From: Gossypium raimondii | Lineage: Eukaryota; Streptophyta; Magnoliopsida; Malvales; Malvaceae | Length of the DNA: 64,000 bases | Reading direction: 5' to 3' | Assembly (NCBI RefSeq): GCF_025698545.1 | Contig: NC_068573.1 | Span: 6,267,001 to 6,331,000 of the forward strand | Shown: positions 5,991 through 62,377 of the stretch, piece after piece | How the letters are laid out: each line of letters begins with the position of its first letter | Position numbering within the stretch: the first letter of the stretch is position 1 | Notes under the pieces: model-generated | Databases searched by the model: none | Seen by the model: the letters and a program-made list of their open reading frames with translations, nothing else | Told to the model about the DNA's origin: nothing | Program-made: the position numbers and the translations under genes

Positions 5991-5994
<4 letters not shown>

Positions 5995-13299: not shown

Positions 13300-16165
13300 T
13301 CCCTCAAAATTTGAAAATTTCAAACCTTTAGGGGTTAAATTAAAAGAGACCGTAAGCTGACGGTCTCTACTAGAAAATTTGAGAAATATAGAGGCTAGTT
13401 TGAGCATAGTTGAGCTTCAAATACGGTTCCTTAGTGGGGGACAAAAAGATTAAGGATGAATGGTTGATATACGGTGAGAAATCACACATGAAGGGCTATA
13501 AATAGCTAGAGAGTGACTTCCTAGGAGACTTATTCTCCAATCTGTTTCATTTCCTTTCCTTCATCTTCCTTCTTGGCTACTCCAAAGGAAAGATGGCCAT
13601 GGAATGGAAACTCTACATAGAGCAGTGATCGTGAGTCTTGAGTCGGGAAAAATAGAGGATCCAGTAAGCTGCTAATGTTCTAAGTCCTTTAGTGTATGTA
13701 AGATTTAAGAACCAAGGTTAAAGGCTTCAAAAAACATTTTAAAGATTCTGCGTGTTTCTAAAAAAATGAGTTTTAAACTGAGATTACTAAGCTTAACCCA
13801 TGAATTGGTTGTCTTGCTTAGCTGCCAGGAGAGTGGAAGCTCCAACGTCCAGAAGAGCTAAGTAGACAAGGCAAAGAAGCATTAGGCGAAGAAGCATCCC
13901 ATCTTTAATGATTTTTATGTTTTTGTGATCATATTAGCTTAATCTAGCTAGCCTAGGGGTTAATTTGAAAAAATATTAAAGGTTGTGGGACTCACCATGA
14001 ATGCTTTTGAATTAATTTTGATTTTAATTGATAGATTATGAGTCCTTATTGAAAAATAAACAAGTTTTGTTAAGTGATTTTTGATGAATTTTGGAAATAG
14101 GGATTAATTTGTAAAATGTATAAATTCTAGGGTTTTATTGTGAAATAATGGTAAAATGGGTTTTTTCAAGTCCCTTTCATCTATGGTTAATACGGATTTA
14201 GATTAAAATGGTTGGACTTTAAGTTATAAGCTTAAGGACTAAATTGTGAAAAAATTAAAATGTTAGGGGCAAATTGGTAATTTTTTATAAACATGAAATA
14301 TGGATTAAATTGAATACTAGAAGTATTTAATTGATTGAAATTACCTATTTAGATCAAGATAAACCACATTTGAACTTAGATCGAGGAAAAGCTAAAGCTT
14401 CAGACTAGTTCGATTATATCACTACGCCCCTAATTGTCGAGGTAAGTTCGTATGAATTGTAATTGTGTTAATTTTATTTAAATTGAATGTTTATTATGCT
14501 ATGTTTAATGTAAATGGATCGATATATAAATGTGACAATGCTATGATGAATTGACGGATATTGAGTCCCGATTGAACCTTAGGAATTCTTAGGATACAAA
14601 TGACATGTCATTAGGGATTTCATGTTTCGGGTGTTGGTCTTGATTGTCCTACTGATGGCTGAGGTCCTACATTTGTTGCAGATTCTCCATAGCTCGTGTG
14701 AGCAGACCCATTTCACAGCTCATATGAGCAATGATGTAAAGGAAATGTTACGGTTATATCTAAAGGCGCACTTCGTGTGATCTTTCCCGAGCATCCGAGG
14801 AAATTCTAGATGGTTCAAAGGGTATGAAAAGGAATGAAATGGTAAGCGTTCAACTGGAATGTATCATGAACTTATGAAAAGGAATTATGAACTAAATGAT
14901 GAAATTATATGTGCAAATCTACTTGTTATTGGATGAATTCATTTGCACCATGTACAAGAGTATTAACTTGTGATTTTGATGATGTTGTATAGGTTTATGG
15001 CAATCTTATGGTTTTGGTTGATTTTATACTTATACTTTATATTATGCAAATGAAATGGTAAGTTATGTTTTGGTTTATACGAGCTTACTAAGCATTCATT
15101 GCTTACGTAGTTGTTTTCCTCTGTTTTATAGATTATCGAAAGCTCGATTTGGTTGGAAGCTCATCGGAGATTTATCACACTATCCAGCAGTTAATTTGGT
15201 AGCTTTTGAACATTTTGGCCAAGGTTTATAATGGCATGTATAGGGTGTGTGTATTGGTATTTTGATGAATGAGTTAATTGTTTGGCATGTATAAGTTTTG
15301 AAAGTTATGTTGGTTTGGTACCATTTGATGCTTTGTCAAAATATGTCATTTTGGTTACCTTATTATGCATGTTTGTAAAGCTCCTTATGAAATGTTTGGA
15401 AAGGCTTGATAATGGACACTTTGTGGTATGTTTTGGTAACTAATTGAACTAGGTTATGATGCTTGAATAATGAATTGTTGATTTGTTTTGACATGTTATG
15501 TTTGGATGTTAATTGTGGTGCCTTTGAATGTCATATTGGTTAATTGAATTAAGATCTTGAAATGGCATTTTGATGTGTGCTTAAGTAGTGTTTAGGTCCC
15601 TTTAAAGTGTGCTTAAATGGGTTAAAAGGTTATACATGAAGTGGTTTGAAATTCCTTGATTATAGGTAAATTTTGGGTTCACACAGTCTGAGACACAGGC
15701 GTGTCTCAGCCGTGTGAGGCGCACGACCTGGAAACTTGACCGTGTGTCATCTGAAAATTTCAAAGGGTACAAGTCAGTGAGTTACACAACCTAGCACATG
15801 GCCTAGGACACAAGTGTGTAGGGTGACTCAGAGAGTTACACAGGTGAGGACACAGGCTGGGACACAGTCGTGTGTCCCTTGTTCTAAAGTTACACAGCCT
15901 AGGGTTATTCCACACGGCCGTGTGACCCTTGTTTTCAATTTTTGCAACTTTTTCCTAAACTTCCTGTTTTGTTTCAAATTAGTCTTAAATTGCACCTAAG
16001 CTAATTTTAGGGCCTTGAGGGCTCGATTTAGAGACAGTATGCATGTAAATGGATGGTTGAGTATATTATTAACATGTTGAATGGTATGATGTTTAAATGT
16101 TTCTGATTGTACAGTAATATTTCGTAACCCTAATCCAACGATAGAGACGGGTTAGGGGTGTTACA
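13300..16165 (+). mobile_element. LTR fossil inserted in F-box intron, left copy
   Basis: The right end is certain: GGGTTAGGGGTGTTACA stops at 16165, next to intron sequence of the F-box exon. The left limit is approximate. It shares its last 1.4 kb with the inverted copy at 60926-62377, and shares landmarks (AGCATTCATTGCTTAC, GAAGCTCGAT) with the 17.5 kb LTR. Near 15680-15930 it carries a cluster of ACAC/GTGT palindromic words such as CACACGGCCGTGTG. It is non-coding; no internal retroviral genes are visible. Old: it predates the inverted duplication. Confidence 0.65.
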
Positions 16166-16180
16166 CAATGATTTACTTAC

Positions 16181-16307
16181 CAAATTGTTGCCAAGAACTA
16201 GAAACCAAGCTAACCCTAATGAGATCAGAAGGGTTAACCAATATCATGAGAATCTTCATTGAAATATCATGTCCAAGCAATTCTATAAAATCACCAAAAT
16301 AATCCAA
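16181..16307 (-). pseudogene. F-box protein first exon, start codon lost
   Basis: Inverted copy of the exon at 60784-60910. It encodes an F-box (LGHDISMKILMILVNPSDL, VSLVSSSWQ) followed by a GTAAGT donor. The codon aligned with the start ATG of the other copy reads TTG here. The rest of the gene is missing, because an LTR follows a few bases into the intron. F-box proteins are substrate receptors of SCF ubiquitin ligases. From memory the wording is closest to Arabidopsis At4g00755-type proteins. A single exon cannot be functional. Confidence 0.7.
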
Positions 16308-17505
16308 TTTTGGATCCTTTGTATAGCTTTAGCAATAACTGTAAAATATCAAAAACCCCAATTCACAATTGTCTATAATAAGAAAAAAGAGATTTAAAAA
16401 AATCTTTATTCTGGGTTTTCATTGAAGATCAATACAAATTTGTTACCCTAAACTGAAAACATATTAAAGACTAATCAAAAGACAGAGTTAAGCGAGCATA
16501 CGAAATACCCAATACTAAAATAAAAATATAGGGACTAGTTTTAACAAATGGAAAACATAGAAAAACTATGTTAAAAGAAATGGAGAAGATAGGAAAATAA
16601 AGGGAGAAGCAAAAGATAATGGGAAATAAAGAAAAAAAGTTAAAAACATAAAAGAAAAAATTAAATTGCTCAAAACGAAAAAATATAGGGACTAATTGTA
16701 TAATTTAACTTAAAATTTTCATTTAAAATGATGATTTAACGTGCCACATCAGCTTACCGTTATACTATTAACGACAATTAACGGCTTAATGACTAAAATG
16801 TTACAATACGATAACGTAAGTGACTAAAACATAACATTTCAAAAATAAGTGACTAAAATGTAACCTGATGTAAACAAAAGTGACTATTTTAGTAGTTTAC
16901 CCTAAAAAATTTCTTGGTAAAAAGACCTTTTGGGTCCCTCTCAATTTTGATATTAAGCAAATTGGTTCCTCTCAAAAACCTTAATCTTTGTCAATTTTGA
17001 AAGTGAGCAATTAACGACAATTAATCATGGCGTTAATTCTCGCAAAATGAGCACCCACGTTACAAAGTTTGTTCATTTTGGTCATCCTAGTTAAAATTGC
17101 AAACAAAAATCTTAGCATTCCAAGTAATTTTTTTATTATTTTCCACCTTGGATATTAATATCTACCTCATTAATTTACATTCAAATAATTTACTTTCCTT
17201 TGTTTTCAACCTAGTAATTCCTCTAATGCCGCCTCATCTAGAACAGAAATAACACACAACTCTGCTTTCTATGTTCTACATATCCATCCATTGCAACTAA
17301 CACTTTCTTCATTTTTTTTATTTTACCTTTATACACTCTAAGGAGTAAGTTATTTAAATGCATGAGATGGATATTACTATCTAGCTGGAAAATAACAAAA
17401 ATTAACCAGAATGGCAGGTATGATTTTCGCTTACAATTTTAACAAGAGTGATCAAAATGAACAAATTTCATAATATGAATGCCCATTTTATTAACTTTTT
17501 TTGTG
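16308..17505. other. Spacer: F-box upstream region and repeat block
   Basis: This is the inverted counterpart of about 59590-60783. It holds the F-box upstream region (16320-16700), a block with repeated GTGACTAAAATGTAAC words (16780-16910) that resembles a common plant MITE, and the tRNA-upstream repeat (17040-17300). There is no other gene. Confidence 0.6.
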
Positions 17506-20500
17506 TGTAACAGCCTGATTTCGACCCTAATCGGACATAGTGGTTTCGGAACCACAAATCTGAGTCAAAAAAATATTTTAATATTATTTTGTGTGTTTAT
17601 TATGTGTAAATTTGATTGTGTGAAATTTTTGTGTCTTAATTTTATCGTTTAAGTGACCGATTAAAGAAAAAGGACTTAATCGCGTAAATAGTAAAAGTTG
17701 CTAACTAATTGTTAAAGTGCTAAATTGATTTGTTCTTTTAGTGGTAGGTGTTTATGTTGTAATTATACCATGAGTTATATTGATGGACGGTTATGTATAT
17801 TGTATATAAAATGTGTATATTGAATTATAAAGGTTATTTTGGTAATTATATTAATTATGATAATATAATAAAACATAAAATAAAAACATCACATGCATGT
17901 TCATCTTTAGTCTAAGGAAAATAAAAGAAAAGAAAATCTACATTCGGCCTTTGTCTTGCTCAATTAAGGTATGTAATTTGTTCGGTTTTTAATAATTTTT
18001 ACGTTTTTGAAATCGTTGCTAAGTTATCTTCAAAGCCCATGTTTCAATTTTTGAAATTTATGATGATTTTGTGTTTTGCCATTGATGATAGCTTGTGATT
18101 TTTGTTGTTTGATGGTGAAATATTAAAGATATGTGAAAGATTAATATGTTTTGTCTTTGAATTTTTGGTGAAATCGAGTAATTAGGGTTAAATTGTGAAA
18201 ATAAATTTTTGAGGGACTAAAATGACAAATAAATGAAAATATGGACTTGCATGGACTAGGGTAAAATTCGGCCTAAGCATGGTATGTGTGAATTTTGTGT
18301 TTTATGTAATAGGGACTAAATTGCAAAAAGTGTAAAATGTAAGGGGCAAAATGGTAATTTTCCCATTTATGTGTTTTTGGATTAAATTGAATGAATTAAT
18401 GAATAAAAAGGCTAAATTTGAATATGTTTAGATCAAGAAACGAAGAAAACGGAATTGGATCGGGGGAAAATGAAAGTAGTCGAGTAGTCGATCGTGTCCG
18501 TCGATATCCGAGGTAAGTCGATAAGCATTTAAATTCTGTTAAATTCAATTGGTATATAGTATATATATGTGATAAATAGAATTATTATAGATAATGTTAG
18601 TCTTTGGCAGAATGTATTTGTTAAAATAGGTAAGTAATTGAGTTCAATTCAAATAGTATTTAACATCTGCAAGCCCGTACGAACCCTAGAAATGCATGAG
18701 ATTTTTCTGATAAATGTTTTCGTGTAAGACCACATCTGGGACGTTAGCATCGACTTGTGTTTTCGTGTAAGACCCTGTCCGGGACAGCGGCATCGATCAG
18801 TGATTACATGTAAGACCACGTTTGGGATGTTGGCGTTGTATAAATCTCTTGATTATTCGAGTATCCTATTTAATTTCGAACGGTTCAACGGGCAATGATA
18901 AATGAAGATCGGATATGAAATTGAATTGCATATTCAAGTATGTGTTTGTTAAATGTATGTTTACAAATAGGTTAAGTTGTTATTTATAATTATGGAAAGT
19001 ATGTAAAAATGGCATTTGAATTAACTAAATCCATATATATGTATATAAGCTGTTGATTCGGCCCTTGTTGAATTAAATGTTGTTCAATGGAAAGGTTATA
19101 ATTATATATATATATAAGTTTATTTTCGATTATATAGCTTGAGTTTGAAATCAAGGTATGAAATTATAATGGATGATGTATTTATATATGGTATGGTATA
19201 TAATATAGGTAGTATTAGTTAAATGTTATATGTTATGAATAATAAATATGCTTAAGCTTATGACTTACTAAGCTTTAAATAACTTACGGTGTATTTGTTT
19301 TGGTTGCTTTTGTTTTATAGATTTTGAGGTTGTTACGAGCTCAGGGATTCGTCAGAAAAGCTCATCACACTATCAAATAACTACGGTATTTTAAACTGAA
19401 ATTTCTTTTGAAACTATGGCATGTATAGACCTTTGAAGGTTGTTTAATTCGAAGATGTATATATTAAAGCCATGCGAAAATGGCTTAACATCTTGTTATG
19501 TTTGGTTTTGGATTGAATTATGAATTATACATGACTTGATAATAGTTAGTATTTTATGGATAGTATTTTACATGCGAATATTATGTGTGGTTTATTTGGT
19601 TGGCATCAAAATGAATATATGATATGATCTATAAATAGAAGTATATTTGTAAATGTTGAAGAGTAAAAGAATGTTAAGTGTTCGGTTGTATATTGATTTG
19701 GTTTGAGGTGTGATTATAAAATTTTAAAGGGTTTGTATAATTCATTGAGATGTATATTTAAAATGTTAATGCCTATGTACATGTTTGTGGTTGTTTATTT
19801 TGTTTGATAGGTTAATGAGATTACCGAGTGTTATAAAAGTGATATTTGTTTTGCATCTTAGATTAAAGTGGTAATGAAATGGAATGTGGAATTGGGAAGT
19901 GAATTATGTTTGAGCATTTATGAACATGCATGAAAATGGTTAATTCGGTTATATGCATTTAAACTGGTATATGAATTGTTGTTTAAACATTGGTTTTTGA
20001 TAGATAATTTGATTAATAAGAATAGGTTTGTTTTGGGCGTACAATGTAATAGTGATAACTTATATACATATAATAGGACATATGTAATTCAGTTGTATAA
20101 TTAGAACATGTATATTTGTTTTACATTTGGGAGTGAGTTGATTTGGTTACAAGATGAGCTAATTACGAACACTGTTAAAATATTTTGGATGTTGTTAAAA
20201 GAGATATATGTGTGAATCAACATTAGTACGTATAAGGTACTTTTATTGTATAATTCGGTTTTGGTAAATTATAAGTTTGGCTATGGCATAAGTTTCTTTT
20301 CTTGTATATGTGCATATTTTAGTTAGTTAAGAATTAGACTATAGCTTGTTTTATATATATAACATATATGTAATCAATGACCAAATTATATTTGGCTAAA
20401 CATAATTTCAAATTATATGCATTTATAATCGGCTTTATAGGTAAGTATCAAATTGGCTATTATGTGTTTGTATTTTTTTCCTTTTTTTTTTCGAATAGGT

Positions 20501-20873
20501 GAGTCATTAAATTAGTTAATTATATGACTTAATTATATAGCATATTTAGTTATAGTATTTAATTGAAATAGGCTTGGTTATATTAACATAAAGTGCTATT
20601 GATTAAATAATTTATGTACAATGACTGAGTTTGTTTATGTAAAAAAATAAAATTATGGAGACTATGAAATTATGAAAGGTTAAATTGTTTAGGCTATTGA
20701 ATTTGGAAATGTTAAAATGTACATTATTTTATTTTATTTTTTTTTGTTCGTTTAATTAGTTTGGATAATTGAATTAAATTATCTTATTTGTTATTTATTT
20801 TTGAAATAAGCTTAATATTAAGTAATACTTCGCAACCCCAATCCAGCGACGGATACGGATTAAGAGTGTTACA
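17506..20873 (+). mobile_element. Solo LTR, 3.4 kb, with target duplication
   Basis: It begins TGTAACAGCCTGATTTCGAC and ends GATTAAGAGTGTTACA, so it has TG...CA ends. Direct flanks are TTGTG on the left and TTATG on the right, a 5-bp target duplication with one mismatch. The paired site in the other arm (59581-59600) reads straight through without it. The body has no gag or pol and looks like a solo LTR of a large Ty3/gypsy element. It inserted after the arms duplicated. Confidence 0.8.
18718..18843 (+). repeat. Minisatellite inside LTR, 3 units
   Basis: Three imperfect units of about 42-46 bp built on TTTTCGTGTAAGACC, GGGAC and GCATCGA. It occupies the same LTR position as the minisatellite at 5293 but with an unrelated monomer. 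Confidence 0.75.
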
Positions 20874-21638
20874 TTATGCTTAAAATGAACATTTTTGAAA
20901 GTTGAGTGACTATTTGTCTAGTTTACCCTAGAATCTATACTACTTTATATAAATTTCTTAAAAATGAATTTTTTGTGCCTTCCTTACATGACATTTGTCC
21001 TTTTTCTTGTTTTTTTTTTACATGAGAAGATGATGGTTAAATTTCAGTTTTAATCCATCTACTTTTGTGAGATTATATAAGAAAGGTATTTCAATTTTGA
21101 TCTTTATATTTCGCTCAAATTTAAAATTTTATCTCTATGCTTTAATTTTGACATAATTTGCTACCTTAATTCTTATAATGTCATTAGTTAGTCTAAATAC
21201 TTTATTTTGAGTAAAATGTCTATATGAGTTTTAAGAAATTTTAACACTGTTAAAATTCTCTATTAAATTTAAGTCCATTATAGTGTCATCTTTTGTTAAA
21301 TAGATATCAAATGAGTAATTTTTAATTTAAAAATGTCATACTAACAAATTTAACGGAAAAATTATAACATAAAAGTATAGACATTAAATTGTAAACATAC
21401 AAAGAACTTATTGTAGCCTTTTAATTTTTACTCTATAATTTAACCAAAATAAATAATTAACTAAACCCAAACCTCCGATGAACCCTAAAAACCATACTAG
21501 TATAATATAATGTAACAAATTAAGGAAAATTTAGAATTCGAGGGGGAGGAAAGCGATTCCTGGGCCAAAAAGGAAAAAAACTTGAGGCAATTTCTTTTCT
21601 GAGTAATGAAATATAAAAGTGAAAAGGGTACAAGGAAG
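20874..21638. other. tRNA upstream spacer
   Basis: A non-coding duplicated spacer found beside the tRNA copies (compare 58828-59580, inverted). Close to the tRNA it carries a TATAAAA-like word and CAA (GTACAAGG), typical upstream elements of plant tRNA genes. Confidence 0.55.
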
Positions 21639-21711
21639 GGGGATGTAGCTCAGATGGTAGAGCGCTCGCTTAGCATGCGAGAGGTACGGGGATCGATACC
21701 CCGCATCTCCA
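21639..21711 (+). tRNA. tRNA-Ala (AGC)
   Basis: A 73-nt complete cloverleaf with anticodon AGC, identical to the copies at 12161, 52239 and 58755. Upstream lie ATATAAAAG about 30 nt before and a CAA at -8. The nearest T5 run downstream is about 20-30 nt away, further than in the other copies. Probably functional. Confidence 0.95.
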
Positions 21712-22216
21712 CTTACTACTGTTTCAATTAGTTTTTAAAACATGTTTCTATTCCCCATTTGCATGGGTGATAAAGTTTTAAAGTGATGTAGCAGAGTTTC
21801 TATGAAACACACCTCCTCTGCTAAATCAACTGTTTATGACAATCACCGACGCTTTATCAGGTACCCAATTAATGGAATTTTTGCTGTTACAAACTGTGCT
21901 TGCCAGAACAGAGTACACCTTTTCTTTGCATTCCATTGTTGGGTCCTGATGGAGATAATAAGTGGATCTTTGATATTTCACCCCACCTTTGCAGGTTTGG
22001 TCTTCAACTCTTGAGTTTGCCACTTATATTCATATTCAAATTGTCATTCACTATCATCTGCCTTGAACAACTTTAAAATTACAAGCTCTCAAGTTCCGGT
22101 TTTACTTGCTTTCCTCAACAAACATCTTTCTTGTTCATTAAATTCATAGATATGGCTTTCCCAAGCTATGCGTATGAATAAAGAATAAAATAAAATTGAT
22201 AGAGATCTTCCAGGAA

Positions 22217-22712
22217 TTAAACATTTTCTGGACCTGGCACAACATCCCTTATAAGTTTGCTGCCATTGATGATCACTTTGCTACTTGGTGCAGAAACTCC
22301 GACCACTTTGATTCTAAGTGTGCAGCAAGAGTTAGCAAATTGATGGGGATCGCAATTATGGACCAAGTATAAGAAGAAGAGAAAATAACTGGTAGAAACT
22401 GCAGCGCCAAACATAAAAACAGCTACAAGAGGGTGAACAAAGGTGGAGAATTGACGAGCAAAGCCGAAAAAGAGAACAGTGGCTAAAACCCATATGATAG
22501 ATTTCAAGAAATCTTTCTTTGGTGAAGTGTGGGTTGGAGGTAAAGCTCGGAGTTGGTTTATGCAATACATGAGACCCAAATAACCAAACTAAACCATAAC
22601 TATGAAACCCACCAGGGGAAAGTCACCATGGGTGTAGGCCTGGTACATTGTGGAGATGCAGCTGAATGTCAGATAATAATCAGCTATGGCTGTTAGATTT
22701 ATGGGGATTGAC
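22217..22712 (-). pseudogene. PM4 membrane-protein pseudogene (left arm)
   Basis: A copy of the intact four-helix protein gene at 38391-38939. The last 120 codons are open (LMYCINQLRALPPTH to DVVPGPENV). Upstream, the second membrane helix is interrupted by TAG where the intact gene has TAC (Tyr). The N-terminal about 20 codons and the start are gone: homology stops at about 22712, where sequence from 1.6 kb further upstream in the paired right arm is joined directly, so a deletion removed the start. Function unknown; not expected to make a full protein. Confidence 0.8.
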
Positions 22713-23400
22713 TAACACCTTCACTACTACCATGACATCATTCATGACAAACTCAACAATATTATCTTCTCACAAAATAAACCACCTTCAAACCAATCAA
22801 TAATCCAAGTAAACAACAATTAATAATCCCCAAATAATCACAGAGAGTCAAAGATTAGACAATGACCGGTGACAGAGAAGCACATATTAGAAAATCGAGC
22901 TGATCTAATGGCCGACAACAGATATTCAATCCTAGATAGTCCAAAAGATGGAGATTTTTTGAGATATTTTTGAAAGGAGGTCATGGTAATGGTGAAGGTG
23001 TTCGTGGATGAAATGTAGATGATGGGTAGTGGTGAAGGGTTTTGATGATTAGCAGATATGATTGATTTATGAGTTTTGGTTATAGGTGATTTCTTTCAAT
23101 TTCCTACTTTTTTTTACTATCAATTTAACTTCTTGATATGTTAAAAGAAATGCAGAAGTAAGAAAACAGAGAGAGAAGCAAAAGATAATAAAAAAAAATT
23201 TAAATACCATAAAAGAAAAACAATAAATTGTTCAAAACAAAATAACAGCTTATTGTTAATAGTAAATAACGGGTTAATAATTAAAAATTACAAAACAATA
23301 ACATAACTGATTAAAATGTAATATTTAAATATAAATAACTAAAATGTTATGTGAGCTAAACAAAACTGAAGTAGATTAGCCATAATCTTATTACTTTGGA
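22713..23400. repeat. Small palindrome between PM4 and PG
   Basis: Two inverted half-copies of a segment containing TCATGGTARTRGTGAAGG, separated by about 220 bp with TGACCGGTGACAGAGAAGCA. The same palindrome occurs at 48900-49600 in the right arm. The outer parts match the F-box upstream region (AGAGAAGCAAAAGATAAT). No gene is seen. Confidence 0.5.
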
Positions 23401-23404
23401 GAGT

Positions 23405-23900
23405 ACTACAGAGTCACATGGATCTGGGCTTTGGTGAAGGAGACAAAAGGGTCTGATATGGACGTAGGCGGAAGCGATAATGGGGCTGAAATGATAAATT
23501 CATTAGAGGGAAAACTAGGGCATGAGAAAGTAAAGAGCGAAGGGTCATCGAAGAAAATGCAAAAAGGAGAGGCTGAGGGTGGTGTCCGTGGTGGAGTTGA
23601 ATCAAACAAGATTGAACAAGGAAAATCATATTCATATAGCGACCTGTTTTTCTTCACAAACATCACAATACCTATCTCTAGTCTACTGCATTCATTTTCG
23701 AATTTGAATTGGCTTGGGTTTTATTATTGTGATGTTTGTGAGGAACAAAAGGTACTGATATGAAGCGAACGGCGATGACGAGGACGCCACTTCTGGAAAT
23801 ACAGCCACGGCCTGGTGCGTGCTTCTTTATTATCAATGCTATTTCAATTCTTGGGGGGATTTTATCATTAGTGATTAGGGTTGATAGGATTGAATTAGCT
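23405..23900 (+). other. PG upstream cassette, copy 1
   Basis: A block about 0.5 kb long that precedes each PG copy of the central array (also at 33171, 41340, 43860 and 48760). It has a charged open stretch (INSLEGKLGHEKVKSEGSSK) from 23431 that ends after the hairpin at 23641-23754. Other copies of the block are disrupted and I recognise no family. It may be an exon of a captured gene or a long 5' region. Confidence 0.45.
23641..23754. repeat. Conserved hairpin in PG upstream cassette
   Basis: Near-perfect inverted arms of about 28 nt: CACAAACATCACAATA on one side and TATTGTGATGTTTGTG on the other, with a loop of about 55 nt. The same hairpin occurs in all five cassettes. Confidence 0.75.
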
Positions 23901-24243
23901 GTTTATGTGAGGTGGAGTTCCAGAATTTAGCTTAAATGGTGGCATAATGAAACTGCTATGGAGTTTTATCTTTACATGGATGAATGCATTTAACTCATCA
24001 TTCCTACTTCTACTGAACTTCTTTCTTTTAATCTTTTATTTCACTTTTAATTACTTCAATAATAAAAGTTCATATTTATATGTAGTTATATAGTTGCAGT
24101 ATGAAAAGGACTAATTCTATCATACGTATACAAACTCTTAACAACTCCTTTTCATTGTTGAATTATGAAAACAATGTACTATATCAATACATACCCTCTA
24201 TACGTATGTATCTTCTCTTCCATATACGCATCAAATCAATACT

Positions 24244-27129: not shown

Positions 27130-27374
27130 CATTATGTTTGGTTGGGTGTATTGGCTAATCGGTGGCCCCACCTAATCCCCCCTTATTCCTATGTTTGGTT
27201 CATGGTATTGCTAATACCATTGTAATCCATTACTGACTTAATCGTTGAAATTCACCGATTTGTAATCCACCCCTTTTGCCCAGATTAGGCGCCGCTTCAG
27301 TAAACCGTCCCTGTTTTACCCTCCCATCAGCTTCCCCTTTGTTTCTCTTCTGTTCCTTCTAGCCTCTGCCGATT

Positions 27375-35893: not shown

Positions 35894-35933
<40 letters not shown>

Positions 35934-39640: not shown

Positions 39641-39644
39641 ACTG

Positions 39645-42586: not shown

Positions 42587-42629
42587 ACAGGTGTTGGCAG
42601 CCATTGGAAACTTTTGTATATGCTTAGTT

Positions 42630-45276: not shown

Positions 45277-45284
45277 GTTACATA

Positions 45285-50915: not shown

Positions 50916-51229
50916 GACCTTATTCTCCTCAGTCCACATTGCTCAAAAATTTCTAGGAAAGTTCATTTTTTTCTTAGGGGTTCAAATCAAACTAAAAAAA
51001 AAATGAAAAGAAGTGCCCCCACTTCCAAGAAACTTCAAATAAAGTGCAGCTTCCAAATATTTTCTCTTTCATTTTCTTTGTGTTTCCCGGGAACCAATCA
51101 CTTGATCATAAGAATATATATTTGCTGTAAACTCCAAAACCATGCCAATTCTTGAAGAACCTCAGCTTTTTATGCATATAGTTTCCACCATAATCTCAAA
51201 GCTCATATAACTTTTTCGATTCAAAAACA

Positions 51230-51755
51230 ATGAAGGCAACCAGTGATGAAAACCAATCCACAAATCCCCATAAATGTAACAGCCATAGCTGACTATTATC
51301 TGACATTCAGCTGCATCTCCACAATGTACCAGGCCTACACCCATGGTGACTTTCCCATGGTGGGTTTCATAGTTATGGTTTACTTTGGTTATTTGGGTCT
51401 CATGTATTGCATAAACCAACTCCGAGCTTTACCTCCAACCCACACTTCACCAAAGAAAGATTTCTTGAAATCTATCATATGGGTTTTAGCCACTGTTCTC
51501 TTTTTCGGCTTTGCTCGTCAATTCTCCACCTTTGTTCACCCTCTTGTAGCTGTTTTTATGTTTGGTGCTGCAGTTTCTACCAGTTATTTCCTCTTCTTCT
51601 TATACTTGGTCGTTAATTGCGATCCCCATTAATCTGCTAACTCTTGCTGCACACTTAGAATCAAAGTGGTCGGAGTTTCTGTTCCGAGTAGTAAAGTGAT
51701 CATCAATGGCAGCAAACTTATAAGGGATGTTGTGCCAGGTCCAGAAAATGTTTAA
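51230..51755 (+). pseudogene. PM4 membrane-protein pseudogene (right arm)
   Basis: Inverted copy of the 22.2 kb gene and homologue of the intact 38.4 kb gene. The start is kept (MKATSDENQSTN), but a deletion in the N-terminal region shifts the frame. The main frame IPINVTAIADYYLTF through the four helices is open, then ends early at CDPH where a CAA codon has become TAA. The remaining tail (SANSCCTLRIK to DVVPGPENV) follows after the stop. At least two disabling changes. Confidence 0.8.
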
Positions 51756-52238
51756 TTCCTGGAAGATCTCTATCAATTTTATTTTATTCTTTATTCATAC
51801 GCATAGCTTAGGAAAGCCATATCTATCAATTTAATGAACAAGAAAGATGCTTGTTGAGGAAAGCCAGTAAAACCTGAACTTGAGAGCCTGTAATTTTAAA
51901 GTTGTTCAAGGCATATGCTAGTGAATGACAATTTGAATATGAATATAAGTAGCAAACTCAAGAGTTGAAGACCAAACCAGCAAAGGTGGGGTGAAATATC
52001 AAATATCCACTTATTATCTCCATCAGGACCCAACAATGGAATGCAAAGAAGAGGTGTGCTCTGTTATGGAAAGCACAGTTTGTAACAGCAAAAATTCCAT
52101 TAATTGGGTACCTGATAAAGCGTCGGTGATTGTCATAAACAGTTGATTTAGCAGAGGTGTGTTTCATAGAAACTCTGCTACATCACCAATGCAAATGGGG
52201 AATAGAAACATGTTAAAAAAGCTAAAGGAAACAAAAAG

Positions 52239-52311
52239 TGGAGATGCGGGGTATCGATCCCCGTACCTCTCGCATGCTAAGCGAGCGCTCTACCATCTGA
52301 GCTACATCCCC
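52239..52311 (-). tRNA. tRNA-Ala (AGC)
   Basis: A 73-nt complete cloverleaf with anticodon AGC, identical to the copies at 12161, 21639 and 58755. TTTTT follows three bases after the 3' end on its strand. Probably functional. Confidence 0.95.
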
Positions 52312-53142
52312 CTTCAGTGTAACCTTTTCACTTTTCTGATTTATTACGTAGAAAAGAAATTGCCTCAAGCTTTTTTCCTTTTGGCGCAAGTTTATAGAAA
52401 TCTCTTTCCTCCCTGTAAATTCTTAACTTTCCTTAATTTGTTACGTTATATTAACTTTACTTCAGCTTCGAGTTGGGTTAATTATTTGTTTTTGTTAAAT
52501 TATAGAATAAAAATTAAAAGGTTATAATAAGCTTAAAGTTCTTATACTTTTTGTAAATTTTAAATTTAATCTCCATACTTTTATTTTCAAGAGTTTAATT
52601 CCTTTACTTTTGAATTAAAAATTTAGGTCTATTTGTTAATAATATTATAATATTCCGTTACATTTAATCAAAACTAAAAGCGTAGAGATAAATTTTTAAA
52701 TTTGTGAAATATAGAGATCAAAACTGAAATTTTGCCTTTCTTATATAATCTCACAAAAGTAGAGGGATCAAAATTGAAAATTAGCCATTATCTTCTCATG
52801 TAGAAAAAAGAAAGAAAGAAAAGGACAAGTGCCATGTAAGGAAGGCACAAAAAATCATTTTAAGAAATTTATATATAATACTATATATTTTAGGGTAAAC
52901 TAGACAAATAGTCACTTAACTTTCAAAAATTTTAATTTTAAAGAAGTTAACAAAATGAGCACTCATATTATAAAGTTTGTTCATTTTATTGCTCGTGTTA
53001 AAATTGCAAGTGGAAAGCTTACATGACATTCCAACTAATTTTGTTATTTTCCAGCTAGATATTAATATTGATCCACCTCATGCATTCAAATAACTTACTC
53101 CTTGAAGTGTGTAAAGGTAAAAGAAAAAAGAAAAAGAAAAAA
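52312..53142. other. tRNA spacer repeat
   Basis: The spacer block that recurs at 56247, 58828 and 63248. It includes GCAAGTTTATAGAAATCTCT just upstream of the tRNA and long AT-rich text. It is interrupted at the right by the copia fossil after GTGTGTAAAGGTAAAA, where other copies read on. Non-coding. Confidence 0.6.
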
Positions 53143-55490
53143 TGTTAATTGTTGGAAATTGTAGATTGCAAATTCATAATTATTCATGAGCACTTATTAG
53201 AAAGTGATGATTTATTCAAAAGATACATTTGATTCCAGGAGACATGTTTTTCTAAGAAGTATGTCCAATGGAAATCAAACATAAAGGATTGTGACTCTTC
53301 AAAATAGTGTCTATTGAGTGTATATAAATAGAGGGTCTATGGTGCTCACAAATCACAAATACAATCAATCCTATTTTTCAAAAATTAAAGTAAGAGTTAG
53401 CGAATTCCTTGATTTTGCTAATCAAAAGAAATTCAAAAGCTTTATTGTATCCCAGGAGGACCTTTGTCTTAACCTTCTAGCAACTGTGGGGGTAAATAGT
53501 TCTTTTTGGAAAGCATCACCCGCACCTCGAAGTCTACTGTTTATTTCAATATCGTCTTCGAATCTATCTTCTCCATTCTATATTTCCAACGATCAAAGAG
53601 AACTAATTTTGGAGATGGCAATGAAGGCTACCACCACATTCAAAGCGATGAACCAAGAGTTTGTGAACTTGACCGATTTGATGGTTCAAACTTCAATAAT
53701 TAGAAGGACAAGATGTTGTTCCTTCTTACTGTCTTAAATGTGCCGTACGTTCTGGATCCAAACCTACAACCTGTGGAGGATCCCGCCCCCAATGCAAACC
53801 CTAAGAAAATTGAAAAAAATGGTCGAACTCAAGAAGAAGCATGAAGAAGACAATTTCACATGTCAAGAGGACACATTCTCAACACCTTGTCTAATCAATT
53901 GTATGATCTCTACATGTCGATGCAATCCCCGGTGGAAATATGGAAAGCTCTTGAAGAGAAATACAATATCGAACAACAAGGTACTAATAAATTTTTAATG
54001 ATGAAGTATCTCAAATTCAAAATGCTCTATAGCATCCCGATCATGGATCAAGTTCATGAATTACAAGTCCTTGTAAGTAGGCTTCATGACTTGAAAGTTG
54101 TTATTCCAGAATTGTTACAAGTCGAGGCTATCATCTCGAAGTTGCCCTCGTCTTGGAACAATTATCAGAAGAAACTTCTGCATATGGTAGAGGACTTCAC
54201 TATGGAGAAAATACTTAGGCATTTGCGTATTGAAGAGGAAACTTGAGAGCGTGATGCAATGTATCTTCCCCAAAGTTTTAAACTGATCCATGTGAGCGAG
54301 TCCAAAAACTCTCGAAATAGTAAGCGAAAGGTCACATCCAAGACTAAGGACGTGCAAGAAAAGAAGAAAAAAAAACATCGCAATTGTTATAATTTCAATA
54401 AGAAAGGATACTATATTAAGAATTGTAGACTTCTCAAAAAGAAGCAAGATGCCACAACTTCTAAAGCTAATATGGTGGAGGACATGAACTTAGTGGCCAT
54501 GGTTACGGAAGGGATAAAGAGTTTGGAGATTGGTATGATTGCTGAACTCAACATAGCCATGACTGATAAGTCTTATAATTGGTGGCTCGAGTCCGGAGCT
54601 ACTATCCATGTGTGTAATGACCAACAACAATTCAAGAGTTATGAACTAGTGGCAAATTGTGAAGTGCTTATGGACAACTATCAATTGGCTAAGGTGCTTG
54701 GTCAAGGGACGGTGGAACTCAACTTCACATCTGGGAAGAAATTGACTTTCACCAATATGTTGCATGTTCCCGATGTAAGAAAGAATTTAGTGTCCGCAAG
54801 TATTCTGTGTAACAAGAGGTTCAAGATTATCTTGGAATCTGATAAGTTTGTCTTTCTTAAGGGTGATATATATGTAGGAAAAGGATATTGTAATGAGGGT
54901 ATGTTCAAGTTGAGCATTGATATGAATAAATTTAATTCTTCTACTTATATTGTTGAATTTTATCTTTTGTGGCATGCGCGTTTAGCATATTTTAATTTTT
55001 AAACTTTACAATATATGCAAAAGAATGGTTATATATGTCTAAGTAATGATGGGTTTGTGGATAAATGTGAAATTTTTATTCAATCAAAAATTACCAAGAA
55101 GCCATTTCCTAATAAGTGTGAAAGGAATTCGCAAGTGTTAGATTTAATTCATTCAAATGTTTGTGAATTAAATGGAACTCTAACAAAAGGTGGAAAATGA
55201 TATTTTATCACTTTTATAGATGACTTCTCTAGATTTACTTATATGTATCTCATGAGAAGTAAAGACGAGGCGTTTGATATGTTTAAACGTTTTAAAAATG
55301 AGGTTGACAATTTGTTTAATAAGAAAATCAAAGTGCTTCGTAGTGATAGAGGTGGTGAATATTTTTTAAATGAATTTAATGTATTTTGTGAGGAACAAGG
55401 TGTGGTACATGAGTGTTTCGTGCCTTATACTCTGCAACAAAATGGTTTGGCAGAAAAAAAATTAACCGTACTTTAGGGAGACTGTCGAGT
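53143..55490 (+). mobile_element. Ty1/copia retrotransposon fossil, incomplete
   Basis: It begins with a probable 5' LTR start at TGTTAATTGTTGG, then a leader. Recognisable parts in order are a UBN2/gag-like region (about 53.6-54.25 kb), a Cys/His zinc knuckle, a protease-like WWLESGAT motif, a GAG-pre-integrase segment (LLWHARLAYF) and an integrase core (TFIDDFSRFTYMYL, RSDRGGEY) up to about 55.48 kb. I see no reverse transcriptase and no 3' LTR. It is broken, with several interruptions. It inserted in a tRNA spacer of the right arm and is moderately old. Confidence 0.85.
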
Positions 55491-56160
55491 ATTAAGGTAC
55501 GCCTTATACTAGCAGCTTTTATCTGCAATTACCCGAATTCAAATATGGTATTAGGTCCACAAAATTGGAGTGATGGTATATTTGTATGGTATATTTGACA
55601 ATTTATGCATGCATGAATAAGTTACTTGATGAAACAATTGAGATGATTTATGAGCATATATCTTGCATGAATAGCGTGAATAACTTTGAAATTGATTCGT
55701 TTGATTGCCTATGTTTGAAAATATTATTATTGCTTGACTAAAGCAGCCGCACTAAATTACCGTATTTGAAATTCCTAGATATTTATAACCGATTGCTATT
55801 TTTGGTAATGATATATGATGTGTGTTTAATGTTTTAATAGTATAACTGTATGATTTGGTTTATTGTAAAGGGAGTCACATTGAGTTTCCATAGCTCACTC
55901 CCCCTAATTTCCATCTTTAAAAACAATCCATTAGGCTAAGACGTAGACACGACACTGGGAGAGTCTCGGCTTTGGTTTTTTTTCTTTTATTTCATTAATG
56001 ATTACTATTTTTATTTACTTAGGAAGTTGAATTATTTCCGTTTTCTTTTTATTATGAACCGTGATTTGGGATTTGATTTTAATTTAGTTATTAGGTGCAT
56101 CTCTTTCAGTAAACATTATAAAATTTAGGTGTTTATTATTCATTAACATATGGAAAAAAA
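55491..56160 (+). mobile_element. LTR fragment, probably gypsy
   Basis: Non-coding. It contains GAGTCACATTGAGTTTCCAT followed by AGCTCACTCCCCCTA, wording I associate with Malvaceae gypsy LTRs. It has no clear ends, is broken, and joins directly to the copia fossil. Confidence 0.45.
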
Positions 56161-56173
56161 AACCAACAAAAAT

Positions 56174-56246
56174 TGGAGATGCAAGGTATCAATCCCTATA
56201 CCTCTCACATGCTAAGCGAGCACTCTACCATCTGAGCTACATCCCC
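56174..56246 (-). tRNA. tRNA-Ala (AGC), diverged copy
   Basis: 73 nt with anticodon loop TTAGCAT. The acceptor is intact. Compared with the consensus copies, several transitions are seen: the anticodon stem CTCGC/GTGAG (a G-U pair), the T stem TAGGG/CCTTG with wobble pairs, and the B box GGATTGATACC. It still folds, but the changes and weak B box suggest a decaying gene. Confidence 0.7.
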
Positions 56247-58754
56247 TTTGCTTGTACTATTTTCACTTTTATAGTTCATTACTCAAAAACAAAATTGCCT
56301 TAAGTTTTTTTCCTTTTGGTGCAAGTTTATAGAAATCTCTTTCCTTCTTGCAAATTCTAAATTTTCCTTAATTTGTTACATTATATTATTTTTACCTGAT
56401 CTTGAGTTGGGTTCATTATTTATTTTTTGTTAAACTATAGAGTAAAAATTAAAAGGCTACAATAAGCTCAAAGTTCTTATACTTTTCATAAATTTTTAAA
56501 TTTATTCTCCATACTTTTATTTTCAAGAGTCTAGTTCCTTTACTTTTGAAATAAAAAATTTAGGTCCCTTTGTTATCACCGTTATAGTTTTTCCATTAAA
56601 TTTCTTTGGTGTGACATTTTGAAATTAAAAAAAAGTACTCACTTGGTATCCATGTAACAAAAGTTGACATTATAATGGACCTAAATTTAATAGAGAATTT
56701 TAATGGTGTTAAACTTTCTTAAAATTCACATAAATATTTTACTCAAAATAAAATATTTAGACTAACTAATGACATTATAAGAATTGAGGTAGCAAATTAT
56801 GTCAAAACTAAAGCATAGTGATAAAATTTTAAATTTGAGCGAAATATAGAGATCAAAATGGAATTTAACCTTTCTTATATAATCTTACAAAAGTAGAGGA
56901 TTAAAATTGAAATTTAACCATCATTTTCTCATGTAGAAAAAAAACGACAAATTTGTAAGAAATTTATATAAAATAGTATAGATTCTAGGCTAAACTAGAT
57001 AAGTAGTCACTTAACTTTCAAAAATTTCATTTTAAGCATAAAAAGTTAACAAAATGGGCACTCATATTATGAAGTTTGTTCATTTTGATCGCCCTTGTTA
57101 AAATTGCAAAGAAATACTACCTGCCATTCCAGTTAATTATTGTTATTTTCTAGTGGATATTAATATTCACCTTATTCATTCAAATAACTTACTCCTTGAA
57201 GTGTATAAAGGTAAAATAAAATAATAATAATAAAAAGAAAATGAAGAATGTGTTATTTTTGTTCTAGATGAGGCGACGATGGAGGAATTGCTAGGTTGAA
57301 AACAAAGGAAAATAAATTATTTGAATGTAAAATAATGAGGTAAATATTAATATCCAAAGTGGAAAATAAAAAAACATTAATTGGAATGCCATGTAAGATT
57401 TTTGTTTGCAAATTTAGCAGGGATGATCAAAATGAATAAACTTTGTAACATGGGTGCTCATTTTGCGAGAATTAATGCCATGATTAATTGTCCTTAATTG
57501 TTCACTTTCAAAATTGACAGGAATTAAGGTTTTTTAGAGGGACCAATTTGCTTAATATCAAAATTGAGAGGGACCAAAAAGGTCTTTTTACCAAGAATTT
57601 TTTTATAAAAATAGATATATTTATGGAATCGATTGATATACCTGTCTGAACAAAAGGGTTGAACTAATTGAATTAGAAATTATGTTCATTCAATAATAAT
57701 AGTTTCTTTCCTTTTTATTTTTTTTCTTTAAATTTCTTAAATAAAAGTGGAAATCTTTGCAAACGCACTCTGCGAAAGACGAATTTGTTTTGAGGCAATT
57801 TCTTCATTTGCTATATATAATTCATCCATATGAAATCTGATGTATATGTTTTTGTATGATTAGTGAAGGAGAAAATGGCGATGAGTTTAATTTGTTTAAT
57901 TCATCTATATAAAATCTGATATGCACATGAAAATTCAATGCTGGACACCAAGACCAAAACCAATGTTTGTATCATTCCCTGCCCTTCCTTCCCTTGCTTT
58001 TTGTTTTCCTTTAAATGTTGTATTGGATCATAAACACTTGCAATGGATTATTTTAGGGACAATGAATCAAAGCAGACAAATTCCCATGAAAAAGGTAATA
58101 GCACTGAACACTCTCATGATCTAAGCCTTAACTCGAATGGTCCAGAGAGTTTAATAACAAATAATGATGGGTCGTCCCCAAGTTTAGCCCTATGCCAAGA
58201 AGAACTTGTGAGTAAGGTTGCAGTTTCAGACTGTATTAGCTTTTATGCAGTACAACATCAATATCAATGACCATCGTCTTAAGTACTTTTTTTATTTGTT
58301 TACTTTTGTACATTGGGTTGAATGTTGGTGGTATACATTTCGACTAAATGTTAGTGTATTTTTATTGTTGGATCAATTTTTGTAGTGAATATTCAACATT
58401 TATTTTAATTTTATATTTTTTTAGTTGTATTTAAAGCACAATTTATATCATTATTCACTAGAAATGTTTATGAAAATATATTAATATTGAAATAATAAAA
58501 AATAGAAAAAAATTACCTTAGACATGTCTATCCCAACCCTTTTAAGGTTGCCTTAGAATCTGTCTATCCCAACCTTTTTAAGGTCACATTTGGCGTGGGA
58601 ATAACCCAACCTGATAAAGCGTTGGTGATTGTCATTAACAGCTTATTTAGCAGAGGAGGTGTGTTTCATAGAAACTCTACTACATCACTTTAAAACTTCA
58701 TCACCAATGCAAATGGGGAATAGAAACATGTTTTAAAAGCTTGGAAACAAAAAG
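56247..58754. other. tRNA spacer and unidentified open stretch
   Basis: 56247-57620 repeats the tRNA spacer (also at 58828-60190). 57620-58600 is not repeated. At 58043-58270 there is an open frame (MDYFRDNESKQTNSHEKGNS, then SLITNNDGSSPSLALCQEEL, ending AVQHQYQ) of 75 codons with coding-like composition but no family I recognise. It could be an exon of a lost gene. 58600-58750 is the PM4-side flank of the next tRNA. Confidence 0.45.
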
Positions 58755-58827
58755 TGGAGATGCGGGGTATCGATCCCCGTACCTCTCGCATGCTAAGCGA
58801 GCGCTCTACCATCTGAGCTACATCCCC
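58755..58827 (-). tRNA. tRNA-Ala (AGC)
   Basis: A 73-nt complete cloverleaf, identical to the copies at 12161, 21639 and 52239. On its strand the upstream region has ACTATAAAAGTG about 30 nt before and AACAAGGA with CAA close to the start. TTTTT follows the 3' end. Probably functional. Confidence 0.95.
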
Positions 58828-60783
58828 TTTCCTTGTTCCCTTTTCACTTTTATAGTTCATTACCCAAAATAGAAATTACCTCAAGTTTTTATCCTTTTTG
58901 GCCCAGAAATCGCTTTCCTCCCCTCGAATTCTAAACTTTCCTTAATTTGTTACATTATATTATACTAGTATGGTTTTTAGGGTTTATCGGAGGTTTGGGT
59001 TTAGTTAATTATTTATTTTTGGTTAAATTATAGAGTAAAAATTAAAAGGCTACAATAAGTTTTTTGTGTTTAAAATTTAATCTCTATACTTTTATGTTAT
59101 AATTTTTCCGTTAAATTTGTTAGTGTAACATTTTAAATTAAATAAAATTACTCATTTGATATCTATGTAACAAAAAGATGACACTATAATGGACCTAAAT
59201 TTAATAGATAATTTTAACGGTGTAACAATTTCTTAAAACTCATATAAACATTTTACTCAAAGTAAAGTATTTAAACTAACTAATGACATTTTAAGAATTG
59301 AGGTAGAAAATTATGTCAAAACTAAAGCATAAAGATAAGATTTTAAATTTGAGCGAAATATAAAGATCAAAATTGAAATTTAACCTTTCTTATATAATCT
59401 CACAAAAGTAGATGGATTAAATCTGAAATTTAACCATCATCTTCTCATGTAAAAAAAAGACAAGAAAAGGACAAATATCATGTAAGGAAGGCACAAAAAT
59501 TTCATTTTAAGAAATTTATATAAAGTAGTATAGATTCTAGGGTAAACTAGACAAATAGTCACTCAACTTTCAAAAATGTTCATTTTAAGTACAAAAAAAG
59601 TTAACAAAATGGGCATTCATATTATGAAATTTGTTCATTTTGATCGCTCTTGTTAAAATTGCAAGCGAAAATCCTACTTGCCATTCCAGTTAATTTTTGT
59701 TATTTTCCAGCTGGATAGTAATATCCATCTCATGCATTTAAATAGCTTACTCCTTAAAGTGTATAAAGGCAAAATAAAAAAAAATGAAGAAAGTGTTAGT
59801 TTCAATGGATGGATATGTAGAACATAAAAAGCAGAGCTGTATGTTATTTCTGTTCTAGATGAGGTGGCATTAGAGGAATTGCTAGGTTGAAAACAAAGGA
59901 AAATAAATTATTTGAATGTAAATTAACGAGGTAGATATTAATATCCAAGGTGGAAAATAAAAAAATTTAGTTGGAATGCTAAGATTTTTGTTTGCAATAT
60001 TAATCGGGATGATCAAAATGAAGAAACTTTGTAATGTGGGTGCTCATTTTGCGAGAATTAACGCTATGATTAATTGTCCTTAATTGTTCACTTTCAAAAT
60101 TGACAAAGATTAAGGTTTTTGAGAGGAACCAATTTGCTTAATATCAAAATTGAGAGGGACCCAAAAGGTCTTTTAACCAAGAAATTTTTTAGGGTAAACT
60201 ACTAAAATAGTCACTTTTGTTTACATCAGGTTACATTTTAGTCACTTATGTTTGAAATTTTACGTTTTAGTCACTTACGTTATCATATTGTAACATTTTA
60301 GTCATTAAGTTGTTAATTGTCTTTAATAGTATAACGGTAAGCTATGTGGCACGTTAAATCGTCATTTTAAATGAAAATTTTAAGTTAAATTATACAATTA
60401 GTCCCTATATTTTTTCGTTTTGAGCAATTTAATTTTTTCTTTTATGTTTTTAACTTTTTTTCTTTATTTTCCATTATCTTTTGCTTCTCGCTCTATTTTC
60501 CTCTCTTCCCATTTCTTTTAATATAGTTTTTCTATGTTTTCCATTTGTTAAAACTAGTCCCTATATTTTTATTTTAGTATTGGGTATTTCGTATGCTCGC
60601 TTAATTTGTCTTTTGAGTAGTTTTTAATATGTTTTCAGTTTAGGGTAACTATTTTGTATTGATCTTCAATGAAAATCCAGAATAAAGATTTTTTTAAATC
60701 TTTTTTCTCTTATTATAGATAATTGTGAATTGGGGTTTCTGATATTTTACAGTTATTGCTAAAGCTATACAAAGGATCCAAAA
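58828..60783. other. tRNA spacer and F-box upstream region
   Basis: Inverted counterpart of 16308-21638 minus the solo LTR. The uninterrupted site at 59581-59600 (CATTTTAAGTACAAAAAAAG) is the empty site of that LTR. 60190-60350 is a MITE-like block with repeated GTTACATTTTAGTCACTTA words. 60350-60783 is the likely upstream region of the F-box exon. Confidence 0.6.
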
Positions 60784-60910
60784 ATGGATTATTTTGGTGA
60801 TTTTATAGAATTGCTTGGACATGATATTTCAATGAAGATTCTCATGATATTGGTTAACCCTTCTGATCTCATTAGGGTTAGCTTGGTTTCTAGTTCTTGG
60901 CAACAATTTG
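60784..60910 (+). pseudogene. F-box protein first exon, interrupted by LTR
   Basis: It starts ATG at 60784 and encodes MDYFGDFIELLGHDISMKIL, then MILVNPSDLIRVSLVSSSWQ and QFG. This fits the F-box motif (L-x-DI-x-x-x-IL-x-x-L-x-x-x-DL-x-R-x-x-x-VS-x-x-W) that binds SKP1 in SCF ubiquitin ligases. A GTAAGT donor follows (60911). Fifteen bases into the intron the LTR at 60926 begins, and beyond it the sequence is not F-box gene but a PM4 fragment, so downstream exons are lost here. From memory it is closest to At4g00755-type F-box proteins. Its inverted twin at 16181-16307 has lost the start codon. Confidence 0.75.
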
Positions 60911-60925
60911 GTAAGTAAATCAATG

Positions 60926-62377
60926 TGTAACACCCCTGACCCGTCTCTATCGCTGGATTAGGGTTACGAAGCATTACTGTACAATCAAAAACATTTAAGC
61001 ATCATATCATTCAACATGTTAATAATATCCTAAACCATCCATTTACATACATAGTCTCTAAATCGAGCCCTCAAGGCCCTAAAAATAGCTTAGGAGCAAT
61101 TTGGGACTAATTTGAAACAAAACAGGAAGTTTAGGAAAAAGTTGCAAAAATTGGAAACAGGGGTCACAAGGCCGTGTGGAATCACCCCAGGCCGTGTAAC
61201 TTTTGAACAATGGACACACGACTATGTCCCAGCCCGTGTCCTTACCCGTGTAACTCTCTGAGTAAGGTCACATGGCCTTGTAACTCTTTGAGTTGCCCTT
61301 CACGCTCGTGTGCTAGGCCATGTGCTAGGCCGTGTAACTCACTAACTTGTACCCTTTGAAATTCTCAAATGACACATGACCGTGTCGCCAGGTCGTGCGC
61401 CTCACACTGCTAAGTCACACGCCTTTGTCTTAGACCGTGTGAACCAAAAATTTACCTATAATCAAAGAATTTCAAACCACTTCATACATAACATTTCAAC
61501 CCATTTAAGCATACTTTAAAGGGACCTAAACACCACCTAAACACACATAAAAATGCCATTTCAAGATCCTAATTCAATTAACCAATATGCCATTCAAAGG
61601 CACCACAATTAACATCCAAACATAACATGTCAAAACAAATCAACAATTCCTTATTTCAAGCATCATAACCTAGTTCAATTAGTTACCAAAACATACCACA
61701 AAGTGTCCATTATCAAACCTTTCCAAACATACCATAAAGAGCTTTGCAAACATGCATAATAAGGTAACCAAAATGGCATATTTTGACAAAGCATCAAATG
61801 GTACCAAACCAACATAACTTTCAAAACTTATTCATACCAAACAATTAACTCATTCATCAAAATACCAATACACACACCTTATACATGCCATTATAAACCT
61901 TGGCCAAAATGTTCAAAAGCTACCGAATTAACTGCTGGATAGTGTGATAAATCTCCGATACGCTTTCAACCAAATCGAGCTTCCGATAATCTATAAAACA
62001 AAGGAAAACAACTACGTAAGCAATGAATTCTTAGTAAGCTCATATAAACTAAAACATAACTTACCATTTCATTTGCATAATATAAAGCCTTAAGTATAAA
62101 ATCAACCAAAACCATAAGATTGGCATAAGCCTATACAACATCATCAAAATCACAAGTTAGTACTCTTGTACATGGTTCAAATGAATTCATCCAATAACAA
62201 GTAGATTTGCACATATAATCTCATCATTTAGTTCATAATTCCTTTTCATAAGTTCATGATACATTCCATTTGAACACTTACCATTTCATTCCTTTTCATA
62301 CCCGTTGAACCATCTAGAATTTCCTGGGATACTCGGGAAAGCTCATATGAAGTGTGCCTTTAGATATAACCGTAACC
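60926..62377 (-). mobile_element. LTR fossil in F-box intron, right copy
   Basis: It begins TGTAACACCCCTGACCCGTC right after the intron bases and matches the last 1.4 kb of the left copy (to 16165) in inverse. It includes the ACACGGCCGTGT-like palindromic cluster (61140-61440). It stops abruptly near 62377, where a PM4 gene fragment is joined. Non-coding and partial. Confidence 0.75.

Follow-up and report, generated by a model that had tools for sequence, protein, structure and literature searches.

What kind of structure has placed two near-identical polygalacturonase (PG) genes face to face within a mirrored array of F-box, tRNA-Ala and DUF6490 sequences in cotton, and have its arms exchanged sequence since they arose? 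Gene-bearing palindromes with arm-to-arm gene conversion are known, for example, from the human sex chromosomes. The locus considered here lies on contig C9 (NC_068573.1) of Gossypium raimondii, in a window of 64,000 nucleotides (C9:6267001–6331000) whose numbering (1–64,000) is used throughout; for the extended comparison, 80 kb on the left and 100 kb on the right were added to give 244 kb, in which no N occurs. Two centres of symmetry, a mirrored block order, stretches private to one arm and very patchy divergence are found at this locus. We read them, with reasonable though far from complete confidence, as the product of genuine nested inverted and tandem duplications of an F-box, tRNA-Ala, DUF6490 and polygalacturonase neighbourhood, later corrected in part by gene conversion. 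No description of the locus was found among the titles and abstract openings listed by one open-licence library on such loci, on conversion in plant inverted repeats and on cotton PG clusters.

Two nested inverted repeats

Self-BLAST of the window detected the inner repeat, in which 14747–26916 recurs as inverted blocks in mirrored order at 45280–62376 with 88–96% identity, around a centre at 36–39 kb. This reverse-complement arrangement goes beyond chance: when the window was shuffled 20 times with its dinucleotides preserved, inverted matches (E ≤ 0.01) reached at most 43 bp. Its ends agree with those of the large gene-bearing inverted repeat (14740–62377) proposed by the first-pass annotation. 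From the centre outwards, the PG block 23291–26916 is inverted to 45280–48890 (96.2%), a cassette at 22712–23252 to 48871–49425 (88.0%), a tRNA-Ala and DUF6490 block at 21407–22709 to 51263–52531 (91.5%), a tRNA-Ala block at 20879–21862 to 58609–59589 (93.5%), and the F-box block 14747–17504 (minus strand) to 59591–62376 (93.1%). The order put forward earlier, that is, F-box piece, tRNA-Ala(AGC), "PM4", hairpin cassette and PG, holds in self-BLAST and in domain and tRNA searches, with the two PG genes facing each other at 24244–26408 (+) and 47942–45779 (−). Two of its components need rewording: the "PM4" gene is present in both arms, but its protein is DUF6490, and the cassette occurs in both arms, but the full hairpin is seen only on the right among the matches listed.

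Self-comparison of the 244 kb revealed a second inverted repeat, in which 2014–13526 (+) matches 93006–104491 with 98.7% identity across 11,550 columns, the longest match in that comparison. The right arm (C9:6360006–6371491) falls 29–40 kb past the window end, so that only the left arm, which carries PG copy C and two tRNA-Ala genes, is inside the window. Since the centre of this outer repeat is at 53 kb, unlike that of the inner one, the locus consists of nested inverted duplications rather than one palindrome; the single continuous anti-diagonal that had been expected gives way to two nested repeats with different centres and private stretches in both arms. A single palindrome of ~100 kb, with the outer block collinear through to PG, was also considered and rejected, because the centres differ and 13527–14746 has no counterpart among matches of ≥200 bp at E ≤ 1e-20.

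PG fragments adjoin one end of each outer arm. A PG 3′ end fragment at 1462–2014 (−), a 95.6% direct copy of 6983–7547, adjoins the left junction, and the inner end of the right arm (93006) joins a 280-bp PG 5′ fragment (92730–93009) at the shared bases TCCT, a 4-bp microhomology. Their identities to full PG copies are 95.6% and 98.9%, respectively, and the sequence beyond each arm end is unlike between the arms.

Patchy divergence and probable gene conversion

Arm divergence was counted with MAFFT and again with a second aligner. In the inner arms, the core of the PG block has 44 substitutions in 3224 aligned sites with both (1.4%), whereas blocks farther out stand at 3–6%: 154/2751 (MAFFT) and 143/2745 (second aligner) in the F-box block, 26/514 and, over a longer stretch, 45/973 in the tRNA block, and 37/1031 and 32/1029 in the DUF6490/tRNA block. 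The cassette directly adjoining PG (left copy, 22712–23461) reaches 75/690 (11%) and the far flank 23/187, and the jump from the cassette to the adjoining PG block (45/3232) is abrupt (Fisher P = 7.5e-29).

The outer arms are patchy as well. The substitution total varies somewhat by aligner (61 vs 48). The intervals 2014–4270, 4271–5640, 5641–12550 and 12551–13526 hold 6, 20, 6 and 29 substitutions with MAFFT, 6, 15, 4 and 23 with the second aligner, and 5, 12, 3 and 19 with the second aligner after exclusion of those lying 10 bases or less from an indel. Divergence is thus below 0.1% across a 6.9-kb core and 1–3% on either side. The emptiest 6.9-kb stretch has 7 of the 61 substitutions, against at least 20 in each of 500 random placements, and 3 of 39, against at least 13 at random, once substitutions within 10 bases of an indel are removed.

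In both repeats, then, bounded tracts are more alike than the rest of the arms, a pattern of the kind that gene conversion produces. Coding constraint as the cause of the low divergence between the facing PG genes, copies A and B, was rejected, because their introns are 98.8% identical and their synonymous divergence (Ks) is 0.012 (3 synonymous differences), with a nonsynonymous divergence (Ka) of 0.004 (4 differences); constraint alone would not account for the PG block. The patchy identity fits non-allelic gene conversion between the copies, which we take to be the best account of the patches and which agrees with the arm-to-arm conversion suggested earlier; it is from this pattern that we infer it. 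As in the human sex-chromosome palindromes, inverted arms carry genes and near-identical stretches are bounded by more diverged sequence; unlike in those palindromes, the cotton arms are interrupted by sequence private to one of them, identity of >99% is confined to parts of them, and conversion is deduced from one genome.

Several observations weigh against this interpretation. The interval 2014–4270 is also low, with 6 substitutions in 2241 sites (second aligner), so that one tract would be too simple an account of the outer pattern; the cassette resembles a repeat, and its mutation rate may exceed that of the PG block; patchy identity can arise as well from duplications that differ in age; the F-box blocks are not continuous with the outer arms on both sides; and both conversion and the outer copy are read from a single genome assembly by sequence comparison alone.

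Probable indel noise in the outer arms

The outer core (5641–12550) differs between arms by 42 indels and 6 substitutions with MAFFT, or 44 and 4 with the second aligner, in contrast to 9 indels and 44 substitutions in the inner PG core with both. In the outer arms, 42 of the 52 one-base indels lie in homopolymer runs of ≥3, judged in the longer copy, and the shorter version lies now in one arm and now in the other, in a patchwise manner (15 runs vs 26.9 expected from shuffles, P = 0.0006). Long-read consensus errors behave in this way where short reads lack unique placement. We infer that the outer-core one-base indels are probably noise left in an unpolished consensus, the copies being so similar that they could not be polished uniquely. 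The view that most differences in the outer core are evolutionary indels is not favoured, given the indel-to-substitution ratio relative to the inner arms. Telling against this, the inner one-base indels are also in runs in 11 of 18 cases (three block pairs), so that homopolymer context by itself is no proof of noise and the indel-to-substitution ratio becomes the main argument. If the outer indels are noise, a broken PG copy (D) and two dented tRNA genes in these arms are explained without real decay.

The first-pass annotation had also warned that such palindromes are prone to assembly error. The inner mirror is very unlikely to be an artefact, because its arms differ by 1–11% in substitutions and carry private insertions, and the assembly has no N there; in the outer arms, noise at the level of single bases is apparent.

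Origin of the cluster

Under the reading preferred here, the inner inverted duplication would have come first, its outer blocks now being 3–6% apart. In a second event, an 11.5-kb block would have been placed inverted ~90 kb away, with junctions that cut PG fragments and, at one of them, a 4-bp microhomology. Short tracts of non-allelic gene conversion would later have homogenised both the PG block (1.4%) and the outer core (<0.1%). The likely effect would be the retention of more than one working GH28 polygalacturonase and of several tRNA-Ala(AGC) genes. No dedicated or new mechanism is needed, and the structure is of a known sort.

The chief rival is stepwise duplication without conversion, in which blocks were copied inverted at different times and the identity patches record their ages. 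The different centres of the two repeats, the sharp microhomology junction at 93006 and the older partial units on the right flank (89.1–90.7 kb, 77–85%) all speak for it; however, the PG block would have had to be placed in mirrored fashion beside the cassette in both arms, and the low-divergence core of the outer repeat has no junction at its ends; we regard this rival as unlikely, if worth keeping in view. Alternatively, the 11.5-kb block may have been doubled head to tail before an inversion of approximately 2014–93006 broke a PG gene and turned the pair into the outer inverted repeat. When that inversion is undone on paper, the outer blocks become a direct tandem and the PG 3′ fragment (1462–2014) and 5′ fragment (92730–93009) meet in one orientation, but the break would leave ~1.8 kb of the PG gene unaccounted for, the two fragments are unequal in identity to the full copies, and the un-inverted order has no outgroup example. 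We consider this sequence of events rather improbable; as a variant for the origin of the outer repeat that is compatible with duplication followed by conversion, it is attractive but unproven.

Finally, the right arm of the outer repeat might be an assembly artefact that spuriously duplicates the left arm. Such an artefact would account for the lack of any substitution between PG copies C and D in 1260 aligned coding sites and for the mostly homopolymeric indels of the outer core, and consensus noise by itself fits a genuine recent copy and a spurious one alike. Yet the substitutions cluster, with 20 in 4271–5640 and 29 in 12551–13526 (12 and 19 away from indels), unlike sequence follows each arm end, and the 244 kb is free of N; the clustered substitutions and unlike flanks speak for two true outer copies, and a false duplicate appears quite improbable. 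Nested duplication with later conversion remains the account adopted below.

The polygalacturonase genes

Four full-length PG copies are present at the locus, modelled with nine exons by alignment (C against A). Copy A (24244–26408, +) has nine exons, including one of 24 nt, and encodes 416 aa; copy C (7207–9404, −) has nine exons and encodes 421 aa; both are open and complete. Copy B (45779–47942, −) is 99.4% identical to A in coding sequence, with a 4-bp difference that alters the last residues, hence a changed C-terminus, and one Cys-to-Phe replacement. Copy D (97136–99322, +), outside the window, has its frame broken by six one-base gaps relative to C, all of them within runs of at least two identical bases. 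A true pseudogene is not favoured for D, given single-base gaps confined to runs and no neighbouring coding substitution.

Copies A and C match GH28 in Pfam with E-values of 2.3e-90 (303.4 bits) and 2.6e-91 (306.5 bits), respectively, against a cut-off of 22.9 bits. SPNTDG, GDDC, GHGIS and RIKTW, which correspond to the usual GH28 motifs NTD, DD, GHG and RIK, occur in the modelled products of copies A, B and C, which are putative polygalacturonate hydrolases. Since Ks is 0.32 and Ka 0.07 between A and C, constraint acts on the family. Among solved structures, 7b7a (E = 3.5e-96), 8ikx and 7b8b are closest to A; the plant GH28 enzyme ADPG2 (PDB 7b8b, E = 1.5e-81) and 7b7a, a "pectin lyase-like superfamily protein", align with PG over nearly the full length. 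Unlike these, the PGs of this locus are known from sequence alone, and a DNA search finds their subfamily at this locus and as short remnants: in the 750.8 Mb (281 contigs) of the genome searched, 24000–25500 has, outside the locus, one 133-base match on C9 and, on C8, two that are partial. GH28 as a whole is far more widespread, with at least 163 matching stretches counted exon by exon (123 of 301 candidates scored), the listed ones lying on contigs C1 to C13.

The tRNA-Ala, DUF6490 and F-box components

The stretch from 6.8 to 99.7 kb holds eleven genes of tRNA-Ala type, of which the first four from the left are on the plus strand and the remaining seven on the minus strand; ARAGORN calls ten tRNA-Ala(AGC) and one tRNA-???, the latter having a 4-base anticodon owing to one missing base. 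All eight in the window exceed the Rfam tRNA gathering score, and the three to its right, among them the tRNA-???, are called by ARAGORN alone. The genes at 6833 and 94318 are each one base short of their mirror copies, within a run, and those at 37579, 56174 and 63174 show two to six substitutions each by eye. The locus accounts for 11 of at least 42 tRNA-containing places among the 49 genome matches listed (40 of 139 candidates scored); among the 42, some could instead represent other Ala isoacceptors, or remnants.

Clusters of tandem tRNA genes are described in plants (PMC12652284, PMC12308677 and PMC10701932), where many copies of one isoacceptor likewise occur together. In contrast, neighbouring tRNA genes here are 2.6–26 kb apart, wider than the <1 kb that defines a tandem in one survey (PMC12652284, in whose main text Gossypium is not named), and they sit within larger protein-gene units in mirrored orientation. 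Elsewhere on the same chromosome, C9:3084172–3084689 holds four tandem tRNA-Ala-like matches with ~147-bp spacing, and at C11:8268736–8276621 a match to tRNA-Ala is separated by ~7.5 kb from a DUF6490-like one (78%), and the two may represent an ancient copy of the unit.

The DUF6490 assignment rests on a Pfam E-value of 1.6e-5 (25.4 bits vs a cut-off of 23.7). The F-box piece exceeds the cut-off for F-box-like (E = 5e-6) and falls under that for PF00646; its left copy, at 16307–16032, is broken relative to the query in tblastn.

Other features of the arms, spacer and flanks

On the left, the unit at 20879–22711 (+) carries tRNA-Ala at 21639–21712 (+) and DUF6490 at 22711–22220 (−). Between it and the F-box block is a left-only stretch of ~3.4 kb (17506–20873) with LTR-like (long terminal repeat) TGTAACA...TGTTACA ends, as read at its junctions, where the right arm is contiguous apart from a few bases. 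It is likely an insertion on the left; loss on the right is the alternative, since no clear target-site duplication was found at the junctions.

On the right, the cassette (48871–49666) is itself an inverted repeat, 49401–49666 being inverted to 49157–48878 (75%), and a separate hairpin at 50382–50915 has arms of ~205 bp, 92% alike and ~125 bp apart. The unit at 51249–52531 (−) carries tRNA-Ala at 52238–52311 (−) and DUF6490 at 51249–51752 (+). Additional material follows at 52668–58280, with a tandem tRNA unit (tRNA 56174–56246, −) and a Copia gag/pol fragment (53845–54999, +), and then the tRNA-Ala and F-box block at 58609–62376 (+), with a tRNA at 58754–58827 (−) and the F-box piece at 60784–61107 (+). 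A further tandem unit (62377–64000) holds DUF6490 fragments and tRNA-Ala at 63174–63247 (−), and its matches run on to ~65.9 kb, beyond the window.

The spacer between the inner arms (26917–45279) contains a Myb/SANT-like open reading frame (ORF; 31049–31693), tRNA-Ala at 37579–37649, a DUF6490 ORF open across 182 aa (38939–38394, −) and PG remnants (39896–40603). An inverted pair at 33162–33717 and 40808–41355 (94% alike) has a more diverged third copy at 43825–44397 (80–83%), and 42734–43261 resembles a HAD/P-type ATPase fragment, named by eye, with a Pfam HAD match just below the cut-off. To the right of the window are Gypsy-type ORFs at ~66–88 kb, also named by eye, a direct repeat pair at 71978–72694 and 86629–87340 (94.4%), and older partial PG/tRNA units at 89–91 kb; to the left, −40867 to −31390 holds a direct repeat pair (88–89%) containing sequence 74–77% alike to the F-box block. 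Elsewhere in the genome, large terpene synthase clusters were seen at C5:54.03–54.31 Mb and C11:5.94–6.24 Mb, and the small contig C186 carries several copies; three copies on C5 each share 98% identity with a 125-aa piece of the cotton delta-cadinene synthase (PDB 3g4d), as befits a Gossypium genome.

Significance

Homopolymer noise in near-identical repeats of long-read plant assemblies can make intact genes resemble pseudogenes and tRNAs look odd, and caution is warranted accordingly where such repeats are annotated. A bolder view, that conversion is still at work in a nested plant palindrome, having very recently rid the 6.9-kb outer tract of nearly all substitutions and homogenising both the PG family and the tRNA-Ala(AGC) set, seems less likely than not, and we would hold it only tentatively. 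In its compactness the locus lends itself to testing non-allelic gene conversion between inverted repeats in plants.

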